Below are positions 45,625 to 50,138 of a DNA stretch of 64,000 nt, piece by piece. How positions within the stretch are numbered: position 1 is the first letter of the stretch; each line of letters begins with the position of its first letter. Both the position numbers and the translations under genes were made by a program. The stretch is from positions 124,001-188,000 of the forward strand of contig JAHJUE010000007.1 of NCBI GenBank assembly GCA_018829205.1, written 5' to 3'. The DNA comes from Bacteroidota bacterium (lineage in GTDB: Bacteria; Bacteroidota; Ignavibacteria; Ignavibacteriales; Melioribacteraceae). Under the pieces are notes generated by a model. The model made no database searches. It was not told the origin of the DNA and worked only from the letters and a program-made list of their open reading frames with translations.

Positions 45625-47640
45625 TTATAATATTTTTATTATTACGAAAGTCATATCATCATCCTGCGCTCTTGAGCCGCGCCATTGTTCGGCTGCTTTA
45701 AATAATTCGTTATTAATACCAGCCGCTTTTTTATCGGCGTGCCGCAGTAATATTTCTTTTACTTTTTCATAACCGAACATTTCCCTCTTTTCATTAAATA
45801 ATTCTGGTAACCCGTCGGACATCATTAAAATAACATCCCCGCTTTCAAGTTCGTTTTCTTCTTCATAATATTTAAAATTTCTGAAACCGCCGAGCGGCAT
45901 GCTTTTAATAATTATTTCATTAATTACATTTTTACTTTTCTTATAAATAAATATAGGAGGCATTCCGGCTGCAGAAGCAATCAATCTTTTATTTTTATAT
46001 CGGATAATTGTCATCGACATAAATATATTTCCCAGATTCATTGTTTTAATAATTTCCGTGCAGCGGTTAAAAAAATCGGGTATCATCATTTTAGCGCCCA
46101 GCGCGTTAAAAAGACTTTTTATTGTCGCTACCATCAAACCTGCTTTTGTACCGTGTCCGGTAGCGTCTCCTATAGCTATGTTTAATGTGCCGTCGTTCGA
46201 AAAATAATAGTCATAATAATCGCCGCCGACTTCGGTCGCGGTTTTCATATCAAAACAAATATCTAATCCTTCAATATCATTTAAACATGAAGGCAGCATT
46301 GAAAGCTGGAGTTTACGGGCTTCTTCCAATTCATTTGTTTTACGGATATTGTCGGCTTCAAGCAATTTTCTTTGAAGTTCCTGTTCACGGGCGAATCTTT
46401 CATGCTCAATTGTTTTTTCGGAAAGTGTTTTTACTTCAACAAGTTTTTTTTCTAGATCCTTGGAAGTCGAAGCGAAATCATACGCAAAAGCTATCGACAT
46501 CGAAATTACAAATACAATTACTCCGTATATATAAACATCGTTTAAACCAAAAATAGGAATTATTAAGCCCAGCGAATAAAGCATCTGTAAAATTCCTCCT
46601 AATGCCATAATTCCAAATCCCGCTTGAATTATTTTTTCTCCCATGTTTTTTTTCGTTGTGGGACCGAATAAATACCAGCTCCCCCAGACCGAAAATATCG
46701 TTATTGAAACAAAGGTTAAATAAAGGAATATTATAGAAGTAAATAGATACGCTGCGATTCCCAATGCGGCTGCATAAATCCAAAAGTATTTATAATATTT
46801 AGGAAGCGGTTTAAATATTGTATAAATGGCTGTCGAGGCGCTTAAAATAACAAACAGCAATAGAGCTTTAAACGCGGAATAATAAAAAACGTAAAATCCG
46901 GCGTTCCCGCTAAAGATAGAAATATAATTTCCGGTTAAGAAAAACGCGAAGAAGAATAAGAACAAAACATAGAACAGGTTATTTATTTTATGTTTATTAA
47001 ATACATAAAGAAAAAAATGAAATACTGCCAGTACAAGAGTAATAGACACAAAAATATTCTTACGCACGGATAAACTTGATAATACCGAAACTCTGGATTT
47101 AAGCGATTCATCAAATTTTACAAGAGATATTTGAAACCCGAAATTTAATCCTTTGTTTATCAGATTTTCAGCCTCGCTGAAATTTAAAACAACTTTTAAT
47201 ATCTGAAGAGAATCCCCCGAAAAAAATTCCTTTACCGGAAGAACAGGATTGCCGTCATTAAATATGCCTGTAAATATTAGTCTGTCATTTAAATAAACTT
47301 TTATATCAGCCCAAAATAGAAAATCAAACCCGACAGGTTTATTAAACAATGTAGAATCAATTATAAACTCTTTGTAAAACCAAACATTATTCGCGGAAGC
47401 CGGCGGCATGTTTTTATCATTAAAGAATGTTGATTGTATCTTTATCCAATCACTTTCGGAACCTTCTTTTATATTTCCGAAAGTTGAATCGGATACAAAA
47501 TATTTCCATCCTTCATTAAGAACAAGTTTCTCTCTTTCCGAAAATGAATTGTAATTTATTTTGTCCTGCGCGCATACAAAATTCGCGGCAAAAATAATTA
47601 TAAGCGTGGTGTATTTTAAAATAGATGGTAATATTTTCAA
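45625..47640 (-). CDS. 7TMR-DISM membrane receptor with PP2C/SpoIIE-type phosphatase domain
   Basis: 671 residues with a signal peptide. Residues ~25-175 form a jelly-roll ligand-binding-like domain (WFYKEFIIDSTLF, LFWADIKVYLNDRLIF). Seven membrane helices (~195-395, SLSVRKNIFVSITLVLAVFHFFLYVF) are the 7TMR-DISM core. A coiled coil (~400-440) leads to a SpoIIE-type PP2C domain: FDMKTATEVGGDYYDYY, IAIGDATGHGTKAGLMVATIKS, and GDVILMMSDGLPELFN with its metal-binding Asp residues. The protein probably dephosphorylates a partner of anti-sigma type in response to an external ligand. Gene is at the end of the desaturase operon (8-base gap). Confidence 0.92.
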   Translation of the reverse strand: MKILPSILKYTTLIIIFAANFVCAQDKINYNSFSEREKLVLNEGWKYFVSDSTFGNIKEGSESDWIKIQSTFFNDKNMPPASANNVWFYKEFIIDSTLFNKPVGFDFLFWADIKVYLNDRLIFTGIFNDGNPVLPVKEFFSGDSLQILKVVLNFSEAENLINKGLNFGFQISLVKFDESLKSRVSVLSSLSVRKNIFVSITLVLAVFHFFLYVFNKHKINNLFYVLFLFFFAFFLTGNYISIFSGNAGFYVFYYSAFKALLLFVILSASTAIYTIFKPLPKYYKYFWIYAAALGIAAYLFTSIIFLYLTFVSITIFSVWGSWYLFGPTTKKNMGEKIIQAGFGIMALGGILQMLYSLGLIIPIFGLNDVYIYGVIVFVISMSIAFAYDFASTSKDLEKKLVEVKTLSEKTIEHERFAREQELQRKLLEADNIRKTNELEEARKLQLSMLPSCLNDIEGLDICFDMKTATEVGGDYYDYYFSNDGTLNIAIGDATGHGTKAGLMVATIKSLFNALGAKMMIPDFFNRCTEIIKTMNLGNIFMSMTIIRYKNKRLIASAAGMPPIFIYKKSKNVINEIIIKSMPLGGFRNFKYYEEENELESGDVILMMSDGLPELFNEKREMFGYEKVKEILLRHADKKAAGINNELFKAAEQWRGSRAQDDDMTFVIIKIL

Positions 47641-48114: not shown

Positions 48115-48525
48115 CTAACTATTGATTTCTTTTTTTTCTTTTTTCACCTCAAAAATTTTTACAATCACATAAGCAATTAATGCGAAAATAAAAAACACTA
48201 AAAGCATCCACGAAATACTTTGCAATGCCTCAATAATTGTCTGATAGATTTCAAGTGTCCACCGCTCAAATGTTAATTCTGTTTTAATCGCTTCGGGATG
48301 CTGAGAAGAAAGATATTTTTCATAATTCCAGAATTTAACTCCGCCCGAAATTCCCGTTACATAAATGGCGAATTTTACATACTTATGCCATGCGCTGCTT
48401 ATATCGTCCGAGATAATACGCGTTAGCATTTTTTCAATCGGTTTATCAAAAAATTTTACAATTATATGAGCAGTTACAAAAGCAATAACAAGTGTAACTA
48501 ACAGCAGCAGAAAAAACATAATCAC
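48115..48525 (-). CDS. Small membrane protein of unknown function
   Basis: 136 residues. A hydrophobic helix at the start (FFLLLLVTLVIAFVTAHIIV) and another at ~104-124 (WMLLVFFIFALIAYVIVKIF); a Trp/Tyr-rich segment sits between them with a possible third weak helix (YVKFAIYVTGISGGV). No family recognised. It is ten bases from DinB and six from the kinase-like gene, so it belongs to the operon. Confidence 0.75.
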   Translation of the reverse strand: MIMFFLLLLVTLVIAFVTAHIIVKFFDKPIEKMLTRIISDDISSAWHKYVKFAIYVTGISGGVKFWNYEKYLSSQHPEAIKTELTFERWTLEIYQTIIEALQSISWMLLVFFIFALIAYVIVKIFEVKKEKKEINS

Positions 48526-48531
48526 TCCGTT

Positions 48532-49176
48532 TCAAATTTTTGAATACTGTTCAATCCATTCTTTAACCTGCTCTTCAAAAGGAATTTTGAATGGTATTCC
48601 TTTTTCAAGGTTTCTGTTAATTGAAACAGCGTTTCCTGTTTTTAAAAATTCCTTAAACCCCTTTGAATTAGCCCAATAATAAATGCCCCAGTTTTCCAGG
48701 TTCCATTCGCAAGAATAAGGATTAATTTCATAATCAATATAATACAGCAAGTCCCTTTTAATCACAAAATTCGTAGGAAAATAATCAATATTAATATTCG
48801 CCTTTTGGGCTAAATCAGAAATGTTAAAAAGCTGTTCAATAATTCTTTCATTTATTTTGTTTAATGAAATCACTTCTGCCGCCGAATTTCCTTCTATGTA
48901 TTCTTTTATTAGATACTGTTTAGGCAGACTATACTCAATTAATTTTGGTATATGAATTCCAAGAGAATTTAATTTATTGTATGCGTTAACTTCCGCACTG
49001 GTTTTATCCGATGTAAAATGATAATACGGCGATTTTTCATCGTGCATTAATTTCAGAATTACAAATTCATTATTTAATTCTGATAAATATGAATATCCCG
49101 ATTTCCCTTTACCCATAAATTTATCTATAAGTAAATCGCCTGAATCAGCTTTGAATATACTGCCAATCTCAATCAT
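48532..49176 (-). CDS. Protein-kinase-fold (APH/lipopolysaccharide-kinase-like) protein
   Basis: 214 residues. MGKGKSGYSYLSELNNEFVILKLMHDE resembles the glycine-rich loop and VAIK Lys of kinase-fold proteins. QYLIKEYIEGNSAAEVI is the hinge. DYFPTNFVIKRDLLYYIDYEINPYSCEWNLENWG fits the catalytic loop and DFG-like YIDYE metal site. The canonical HxD is weak (NIDYFPTNF). So it is likely a small-molecule or lipid kinase, or an atypical protein kinase. It overlaps the desaturase stop by four bases (ATGA), implying linked roles; a sphingoid or lipid substrate is only a guess. Confidence 0.7.
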   Translation of the reverse strand: MIEIGSIFKADSGDLLIDKFMGKGKSGYSYLSELNNEFVILKLMHDEKSPYYHFTSDKTSAEVNAYNKLNSLGIHIPKLIEYSLPKQYLIKEYIEGNSAAEVISLNKINERIIEQLFNISDLAQKANINIDYFPTNFVIKRDLLYYIDYEINPYSCEWNLENWGIYYWANSKGFKEFLKTGNAVSINRNLEKGIPFKIPFEEQVKEWIEQYSKI

Positions 49177-50138
49177 AAATTATTTACCTGCATACCGTCG
49201 CGGTTGCTGCGCACAATTCTGGAATAAAGCGAAATGTTTTTATCGAATAAAAATTTAAGCCAGAGTTTAAACCATGATTTGTGAAAAATCAGATTATCAT
49301 AAAATTCCGGCGCCGTCTTTTTTAGTTTTCTCAAATTACTCCATGGAATGGAAGGAAAATCATGATGCTCATTATGATATCCTACATTAAGCGCGGGAAT
49401 ATTTAATATTCCGTAATAGCTGTATGTTTCCTGCGGAGGATATGTTAAGAAATGCTCCTGTATCCACCGGGCGCCTAAAGGATGAAAGCCGATAGAAAAG
49501 AAAAATGATAAAAACAGATAAAAGAAAGAGGCAGCTCCGAAATTTATAAATATTAAAACGTCAACTCCGAATACTACAAGCCAGTTTAATAATGTCCAGC
49601 CGTTCATAAATTTTATTTCTTTAAGTCTGGGAGGACGAAGAGCCTGGAACACAGGAAAAAATAATTCCCAAATTGCTTTCCCCAAAAACGAATGACCAAT
49701 TAATTTCGCTTCCCATTTACTCGCGAGATCCGCGTCAAGATTATAATCGCCTTGAAATGAATGATGTTTTAAGTGATAAGCTCTAAAGGAAACCGAACTC
49801 GGAAGCACATTAGGAATATCCGCAATTATTCCCGCAATTATATTTGCCGATTTTTTTTTAAATATAAGATTGTGCGAACATTCGTGAATCAGAACAAATA
49901 AGGCGTGATTAGCGAACGCGCCGACTAAATAGGCCGCAAGTAATACAGCCCACCAGGCTTGGCCGCTTAGTAAAATTGCTATGCTTAACTGAATCCCCAC
50001 AATAAATATTATTATAATAAAACTCAAAGGGTTACGTCCGATCAGATCTCTTACTTCTGGGTGTGATTTCAGAATTTCTTTTGTGCGTGCTTTGTGAGGT
50101 TCCGGCGAGTCTGAATAAACAAAATCATTTTTGTTCAT
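49173..50138 (-). CDS. DEGS1-like sphingolipid delta-4 (dihydroceramide) desaturase homologue
   Basis: 321 residues from the ATG at 50138, preceded by GGAGT; earlier start at 50204 has none. Three His boxes: HECSH (85-89), HLKHH (122-126), HNEHH (255-259). The N-terminus (DFVYSDSPEPHKARTKEIL, SHPEVRDLIGRNP) matches the N-terminal domain particular to eukaryotic sphingolipid delta-4 desaturases. The C-terminus (ETYSYYGILNIPALNVGYHN, then EHHDFPSIPWSN and ISLYSR) is near-identical in layout to human DEGS1. Length equals the family's (~323). Predicted to desaturate a long-chain acyl/sphingoid chain in the membrane, using a di-iron centre and O2. First gene of the operon with the kinase-like gene. 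Confidence 0.9.
   Translation of the reverse strand: MNKNDFVYSDSPEPHKARTKEILKSHPEVRDLIGRNPLSFIIIIFIVGIQLSIAILLSGQAWWAVLLAAYLVGAFANHALFVLIHECSHNLIFKKKSANIIAGIIADIPNVLPSSVSFRAYHLKHHSFQGDYNLDADLASKWEAKLIGHSFLGKAIWELFFPVFQALRPPRLKEIKFMNGWTLLNWLVVFGVDVLIFINFGAASFFYLFLSFFFSIGFHPLGARWIQEHFLTYPPQETYSYYGILNIPALNVGYHNEHHDFPSIPWSNLRKLKKTAPEFYDNLIFHKSWFKLWLKFLFDKNISLYSRIVRSNRDGMQVNNL

Follow-up and report, generated by a model that had tools for sequence, protein, structure and literature searches.

A DES/DEGS-family desaturase in an Ignavibacteria genome and its likely role in sphingolipid synthesis

A desaturase gene of the DES/DEGS family

We analysed a stretch of 64,000 nucleotides (hereafter the window) from a Bacteroidota bacterium of the Melioribacteraceae (class Ignavibacteria; assembly GCA_018829205.1, contig JAHJUE010000007.1), in which one gene encodes a desaturase related to the dihydroceramide desaturases DES1/DEGS1. 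The source genome is 4.59 Mb in 39 contigs. At this locus the desaturase open reading frame (ORF) lies on the same strand as a gene for a kinase-like protein and a small hydrophobic ORF (Table 1).

Table 1. Features of the desaturase locus. Positions are those of the window; residues are those of the 321-aa desaturase.
Feature	Position	Strand	Remarks
Desaturase ORF, DES/DEGS-family, outside bacterial subfamily A	49173..50138	-	321 aa from ATG; Pfam, trees, AlphaFold2 model
Lipid_DES N-terminal domain	50025..50132	-	residues 3-38; C39:174025-174132 in the genome search
His box 1, HECSH	49872..49886	-	residues 85-89
His box 2, HLKHH	49761..49775	-	residues 122-126
DES C-terminal block ETYSYYG...NVGYHNEHHDFPSIP	49344..49430	-	residues 237-265; contains His box 3
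His box 3, HNEHH	49362..49376	-	residues 255-259
Kinase-like protein, 214 aa	48532..49176	-	weak kinase profiles; probably outside desaturase function
Small hydrophobic ORF, 136 aa	48115..48525	-	GTG start; ATG at 48519; no family above cut-off

The desaturase ORF could also be read from a TTG start, giving 343 aa, but the ATG start is preferred because this form matches the N terminus of the family. Only two Pfam families match the protein, FA_desaturase, which is the stronger (4.7e-28), and Lipid_DES (PF08557; 3.7e-14, 52.3 bits vs a cut-off of 23). A first-pass annotation of the locus had described the protein as DEGS1-like, with the same length and three His boxes, and this description holds: the alignment with human DEGS1 covers the entire protein, at 36% identity and 55% similarity (200 bits, 8 gap positions in 320 columns, 321 vs 323 aa). 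The human DEGS1 and DEGS2 sequences used here and in all alignments and trees are not database records. Across 53 bacterial and the 2 human DES proteins, 42 alignment positions are invariant, including the His-box histidines (among them H85, H89, H122, H125 and H126, unchanged in all 55 proteins) and most of the ETYSYYG/NVGYHNEHHD block. The window protein thus resembles DEGS1 (and DEGS2) in its Lipid_DES N terminus, length, three His boxes and ETYSYYG/NVGYHNEHHDFP block, and differs in its modest identity, in eight systematic position differences and in having no glycine at position 2. The CarF/TMEM189 plasmanylethanolamine desaturase is likewise a lipid desaturase common to bacteria and animals, and presumably belongs to another Pfam family than Lipid_DES or FA_desaturase.

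The C-terminal block had been put forward as specific to eukaryotes. Sequence comparison does not bear this out, as the block is a property of a large bacterial family: a tblastn scan of GTDB genomes returned at least 554 relatives of the desaturase at E <= 1e-3. For the 80 closest of these, which also supplied loci, the label is in most cases Ignavibacteria, Saprospiraceae, Chitinophagaceae or simply Bacteroidetes. Among the matches listed, from which very near records may have been omitted, the best named relatives are Ignavibacterium, Ignavibacteriales and Melioribacter, at no more than 74% identity. Lipid_DES matched in 30 of the 294 genomes of the class, 29 of them above the cut-off; the remaining one (G041) was dropped as a carrier, its match being under the cut-off and the open frame there being no desaturase. 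In a sample of the phylum, 39/395 genomes matched, all above the cut-off (16/98 within the class and 23/297 outside it; this sample over-represents the window's class, and the class split was inferred from kinship labels). Control genomes gave Lipid_DES in 0/14 and FA_desaturase in 5/14. Both Pfam domains, Lipid_DES and FA_desaturase, are also present in all of six additional proteins, of which two are subfamily-A members from the class, two come from Chitinophagaceae and one each is labelled Acidobacteria and Dadabacteria. Carriers include cultured bacteria kept in strain collections: Chitinophaga japonensis DSM 13484, Chitinophaga rupis DSM 21039, Flavisolibacter ginsengisoli DSM 18119 and Ferruginibacter paludis CECT 8366. 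A search of viral contigs gave 20 pattern matches and no true relative, and a search of plasmids gave no match.

Phylogeny firmly assigns the window desaturase to the DES/DEGS family on sequence grounds, apart from ordinary bacterial acyl desaturases. The first-pass annotation had held that its proposal would fall if the protein grouped with these or if the genome had no serine palmitoyltransferase, and neither is the case. In a quick tree of 68 proteins, the 53 bacterial and 2 human DES proteins split from 13 other FA_desaturase proteins from three genomes of the phylum (94 in the Shimodaira-Hasegawa-like approximate likelihood-ratio test, SH-aLRT), and a more careful tree of 59 proteins set the DES proteins apart from 4 of the ordinary desaturases (100/100). 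The outgroup branches are long, and the genome's own other FA_desaturase gene (C3) was left out of both trees. Within the family, human DEGS1 and DEGS2 join nine bacterial proteins from families f8 and f43, here termed subfamily A. Support for this grouping is 99 in the quick tree and 91/99 in the careful one; the five f8 members that were measured are 47-50% identical to human DEGS1. The window desaturase falls elsewhere, in a set of 15 (100/97, careful tree), of which 13 come from the class or are labelled Melioribacteraceae. At eight positions, subfamily A and the human proteins have a fixed residue from which the window protein and 90% or more of the remaining bacterial rows outside subfamily A deviate. 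The expected likeness to DEGS1 is therefore confirmed as to grouping apart from ordinary desaturases, and not as to the subfamily nearest DEGS1. The bacterial rows outside subfamily A are not supported as a single clade, and some join subfamily A and the human proteins at 39/95. Since an approximately unbiased (AU) test did not reject a topology with the human proteins outside all bacterial rows and the bacterial rows as one clade (p 0.42), the trees, despite the values of 99 and 91/99, are compatible both with DEGS nested within bacteria and with DEGS outside them, and with transfer in either direction.

The other two members of the set of 15 (L098 and L117) are desaturases 60-61% identical to that of the window, on contigs labelled Acidobacteria and Dadabacteria, and they have an odd letter make-up in the tree; their occurrence there may reflect either transfer or mis-binning.

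An AlphaFold2 model of the desaturase, built with 24 sequences, has a mean predicted local distance difference test score (pLDDT) of 86.6 and a predicted template-modelling score (pTM) of 0.86. Compared with known structures, it has the fold of membrane di-iron desaturases and AlkB-type enzymes. The best matches are two chains of FtsHi motor-complex entries (VIA Z 18.3 with a root-mean-square deviation of 3.7 over 276 residues, and Z 17.2), followed by AlkB of AlkB-AlkG (Z 13.2 and 12.6) and stearoyl-CoA desaturase SCD1 (Z 5.4-5.7), on a scale where unrelated helical proteins may score up to Z 13. A PDB sequence search with the desaturase returned zero matches at 1e-3, and a search of a viral structure library with the model returned general desaturases of giant viruses. 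The common fold of the model indicates the type of enzyme at most, not its substrate.

Sphingolipid pathway genes in the same genome

The first-pass annotation had proposed to look in the genome for serine palmitoyltransferase (SPT) and ceramide synthase, and we found an SPT gene with a ceramide synthase-like gene and a gene of the short-chain dehydrogenase/reductase (SDR) family as neighbours. The alpha-oxoamine synthase subfamily model gave three matches in the genome (396, 217 and 24 bits). The first protein, of 396 aa, has as its best NCBIfam model SerpalmtaseCFB, the Bacteroidota-type SPT, at 491 bits vs a cut-off of 640; it scores 375 and 312 bits on KBL models (312 on TIGR01822, where a true KBL scores 694). 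Its best PDB match is an SPT of what we take to be Sphingobacterium (382 bits), followed by a bifunctional BioF/KBL enzyme (292), an SPT presumably of the Sphingomonas type (257), KBL (251) and a cysteate fatty acyltransferase (232). A role as KBL/glycine C-acetyltransferase was rejected from the model and PDB scores and from comparison with true KBL genes. By these sequence scores, the genome has a serine palmitoyltransferase. The second oxoamine synthase is nearest to BioF.

Beside the SPT gene lie a gene for a 373-aa GNAT-family N-acyltransferase and a divergent SDR/epimerase gene. This arrangement recurs in the class: at 31 SPT loci, namely the 30 best-scoring ones and our own, the ~1.5 kb on each side contain an N-acyltransferase in 19 cases, an SDR in 16 and both in 13. 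On an Aureispira plasmid, genes for an N-acyltransferase, an SPT-like protein (62.5% identical) and an NAD(P)-dependent oxidoreductase also lie side by side. The SDR gene is a candidate for a CerR-type reductase, the SDR family as a whole being too broad for assignment. A role as SDR-type threonine dehydrogenase, and hence in threonine breakdown, found no support, as no NCBIfam model of that name matched. Among 60 of its 93 PDB rows, 3a1n and 3a9w (labelled NDP-sugar epimerase), which we take to be archaeal threonine dehydrogenases, score 41 and 39 bits vs 82 for the best row, so that threonine dehydrogenase is not the nearest relative.

On a Roseomonas marmotae plasmid, a full-length relative of the N-acyltransferase (35% identity) comes after two LptF/LptG genes, with a nucleotidyltransferase gene next in line. 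In C. crescentus the gene order is CC_1156, CC_1155, CC_1154, CC_1153, and CC_1154 is the proposed ceramide N-acyltransferase in the part of the source available to us (PMC11324152). Because the Roseomonas relative holds the place of CC_1154, the SPT-adjacent N-acyltransferase is taken as bCerS-type, by synteny rather than by direct comparison with the Caulobacter protein. The clustering of SPT, bCerS-like N-acyltransferase and SDR genes in our genome resembles the Caulobacter ceramide pathway (Spt, bCerS/CC_1154 and CerR/CC_1164). That pathway differs in that it is described up to ceramide/dihydroceramide and names no desaturase in the available portions of its sources (PMC11324152; PMC11087976, where 'desaturase' appears 0 times). 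Our genome also encodes a second bCerS-like paralogue (G000:C27:65838-66941, 32% identical), as do many others in a search of 52 genomes.

Outside the class, a bCerS-like gene directly adjoins SPT on the same strand in all 17 of the 17 SPT-bearing carriers of the desaturase (for instance G361, G438 and G484). This adjacency contrasts with the earlier observation, repeated in the accessible text of PMC11334938, that Bacteroidota do not have spt, bcerS and cerR in close proximity. Many sampled members of family f37 (genera g158 and g163; genomes of ~2-3 Mb) have an SPT-like gene at ~1e-138, and none is among the 39 Lipid_DES genomes.

Proposed function and its alternatives

We consider it most likely, with a rough probability of 0.6, that the window desaturase takes up dihydroceramide of the cell's own making and desaturates its long-chain base, giving true ceramide. 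Desaturation by eukaryotic DES enzymes is established and is the basis for this mechanism. SPT, bCerS and CerR of the cell would make dihydroceramide; O2 would be activated at a membrane di-iron centre with the His boxes as ligands; and the long-chain base would lose two hydrogens at C4-C5 (trans-4,5 by analogy), giving ceramide. This proposal builds on family membership, intact metal-ligand motifs, the predicted fold and the upstream pathway genes in the same genome; the substrate, the position of the bond, the electron donor and the use of an N-acylated rather than a free base would follow eukaryotic DES. Overall, a sphingolipid role of the desaturase is likely.

If it is true, bacteria and eukaryotes would share a homologous step in making ceramide, although the bacterial form of the pathway reportedly arose by convergent evolution, going by the title of a 2022 study by Stankeviciute et al. 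Sphingosine-type bases in environmental or host samples would then not be eukaryotic by default. Such a role would run against printed statements that place the bacterial endpoint at dihydroceramide. A recent review, in the text available, ends bacterial synthesis there, and the family nevertheless occurs in 39/395 sampled genomes of the phylum. In the available part of PMC11334938, 1-deoxyceramide-type lipids of the Black Sea have bases mostly without unsaturation, and 'desaturase' occurs 0 times in the main text. The accessible portions of PMC11765627, PMC13161914, PMC11211663 and PMC11087976 name no bacterial sphingolipid desaturase. We found no description of a bacterial DES family among the titles and abstract starts that searches of an open-access library listed, a scope that leaves out most subscription journals. 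More broadly, it is conceivable, and we propose it only tentatively, that a large overlooked bacterial family makes 4,5-unsaturated sphingoid bases (in some lineages capnine/sulfonolipid bases), that bacterial ceramide or sphingosine is widespread, and that the DEGS step is homologous to, and possibly derived from, subfamily A. Since cultured carriers exist, the question is testable in culture-collection strains.

Several observations weigh against conversion of dihydroceramide by the window enzyme. The protein does not belong to the subfamily nearest DEGS1, and is thus not its one-to-one counterpart; the SPT gene is not formally assigned, its score falling short of the model's cut-off. Neighbouring genes give no help: SPT and bCerS are beside the desaturase at none of 100 DES loci (20 genome stretches, our own included, and 80 from the scan, with some duplicates and some cut by contig ends). 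Co-occurrence does not discriminate either. An SPT-like gene was found in 280 of the 294 class genomes at E <= 1e-118 (weakest match 2.8e-126), all 29 carriers included, and because it is nearly universal there, its presence is no test. This threshold alone does not exclude KBL, as Bacillus subtilis also matched; the score of a genuine KBL from the phylum is 359 bits vs about 480-540 for the class rows listed. Outside the class, SPT was found in 17/23 carriers vs 189/274 non-carriers (Fisher p 0.81), the 17 carriers all matching at 3.3e-147 or better and some non-carriers barely passing the threshold. Six outside-class carriers (G404, G407, G481, G573, G585 and G588) have no SPT at the threshold used. 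Genes of the heme-copper oxidase family occur in 29/29 carriers vs 47/51 relatives lacking the desaturase. SPT co-occurrence was accordingly rejected as proof of function, as it does not discriminate, and oxygen use was rejected as a test, oxidase genes being near-universal in carriers and non-carriers.

The six SPT-less carriers bear on a reading in which family and fold are the same and members not belonging to subfamily A have a related amide lipid as substrate or give a different result: capnine (sulfonolipid) bases where a cysteate-C-fatty-acyltransferase (CFAT) is present, DEGS2-like C4-hydroxylation, or another bond position. We regard this as a possibility to be kept in view, clearly second to desaturation of dihydroceramide. 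Each of the six has an oxoamine synthase of the CFAT kind; L190, the one such protein compared with solved structures, reaches 611 bits to 7u7h, 577 to 28eh, which is named cysteate-C-fatty acyltransferase, and 233 to SPT. The six also have N-acyltransferase matches at 26-33% identity, which does not prove that bCerS is absent, because the SPT-adjacent copy of another genome (G319) reaches only 31%. Among the 297 genomes outside the class, a CFAT-type gene is present in 22/23 carriers vs 116/274 others (p 2.5e-7, with lineage uncontrolled), and the eight positions that set the window protein and 90% or more of the rows outside subfamily A apart from A and the human proteins point the same way. 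The CFAT association is, however, confounded by lineage, and the gene occurs in 0/98 class genomes of the phylum sample, though 16 of these carry the desaturase. Capnine is thus an unlikely substrate in the window's class, and capnine-type bases are possible substrates in other lineages. SPT or CFAT is present in 23/23 outside-class carriers, a weak result since just 11/297 genomes have neither. An ordinary acyl-lipid or acyl-CoA desaturase, DES-like by ancestry only, would fit the stronger match to FA_desaturase than to Lipid_DES and the missing neighbourhood tie to sphingolipid genes. We consider this improbable, as Lipid_DES is over its cut-off, most of the DES block is invariant, the trees separate the family at 94 SH-aLRT from 13 other desaturases and at 100/100 from 4 of them, and Lipid_DES, unlike FA_desaturase, is found in none of the control genomes.

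The kinase-like gene and other neighbours

The four-base overlap (ATGA) between the desaturase ORF and the kinase-like gene on the same strand is as the first-pass annotation stated, and the pair had been suggested to modify a membrane lipid together. A single lipid-modifying system of this sort, for example desaturation followed by phosphorylation, seems to us highly improbable. Apart from the overlap, it is favoured by the retention of kinase motifs and by an ABC1-type atypical kinase gene that precedes a subfamily-A desaturase in three genomes of another family; ABC1 is, however, a different kinase family. The kinase-like gene and the small ORF lie beside the desaturase at 1/100 loci, the window's own, and no homologue of either was found at the 99 other DES loci. 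A search of 57 relatives for the kinase gave nine matches, eight clear orthologues and one partial with stops, and none of the nine has a desaturase within ~1.5 kb; two genomes (G079 and G191) hold both genes, on different contigs. No sphingosine, ceramide or diacylglycerol kinase domain was matched in the protein among Pfam or NCBIfam models up to E 1. Because the pairing is absent elsewhere, we read the overlap as chance between same-strand neighbours, and the kinase-like gene is probably, from this sequence comparison, an unrelated neighbour of the desaturase.

With the eight orthologues, at 48-53% identity, the kinase-like protein has in common a kinase-type set of motifs, GKGKSG, K..H, IDYFPxNF and YIDYExN. 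Together these resemble Bud32/RIO-type small kinases, with what we take to be the Gly-rich loop, Lys, Glu, catalytic Asp...Asn and metal-Asp motifs. Profile matches are weak, and the protein differs from these kinases in scoring far under all family cut-offs: Pkinase 0.012, RIO1 0.026 (14.6 bits vs 22) and ABC1 0.068 in Pfam, and 2.1e-6 for the Bud32 model TIGR03724 (27 bits vs 125). A structure model of the protein folded alone has a mean pLDDT of 32 and is unusable, so the fold call rests on motifs and weak profiles. The third gene, described as a small membrane protein, is a small, hydrophobic ORF, and a search with positions 48115-48522 assigned it to no family above cut-off.

The desaturase has no generally conserved neighbour. 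The commonest ORF cluster, sensor-kinase-like by eye, occurs at 12/86 loci in varied positions. As for CerR, one SDR match at 27% was found beside the desaturase in the 100 loci, and two in a wider look at subfamily A. In three genomes of family f43 (L229 9110-12445, L230 2914-6120 and L231 2842-6068), a TetR-type regulator gene, an ABC1/UbiB-type atypical kinase gene and a subfamily-A desaturase gene recur with their order unchanged, the desaturase coming after the other two (Pfam was run on the L230 genes only); this kinase belongs to a different family from that of the window. A gene for an MBOAT O-acyltransferase (L037 10184-11344) lies just downstream of another subfamily-A desaturase. 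In the window itself, the small ORF is followed downstream by a DinB-family gene and then by a gene for a 7TM-DISM and SpoIIE phosphatase protein (45625-47640, reverse strand).

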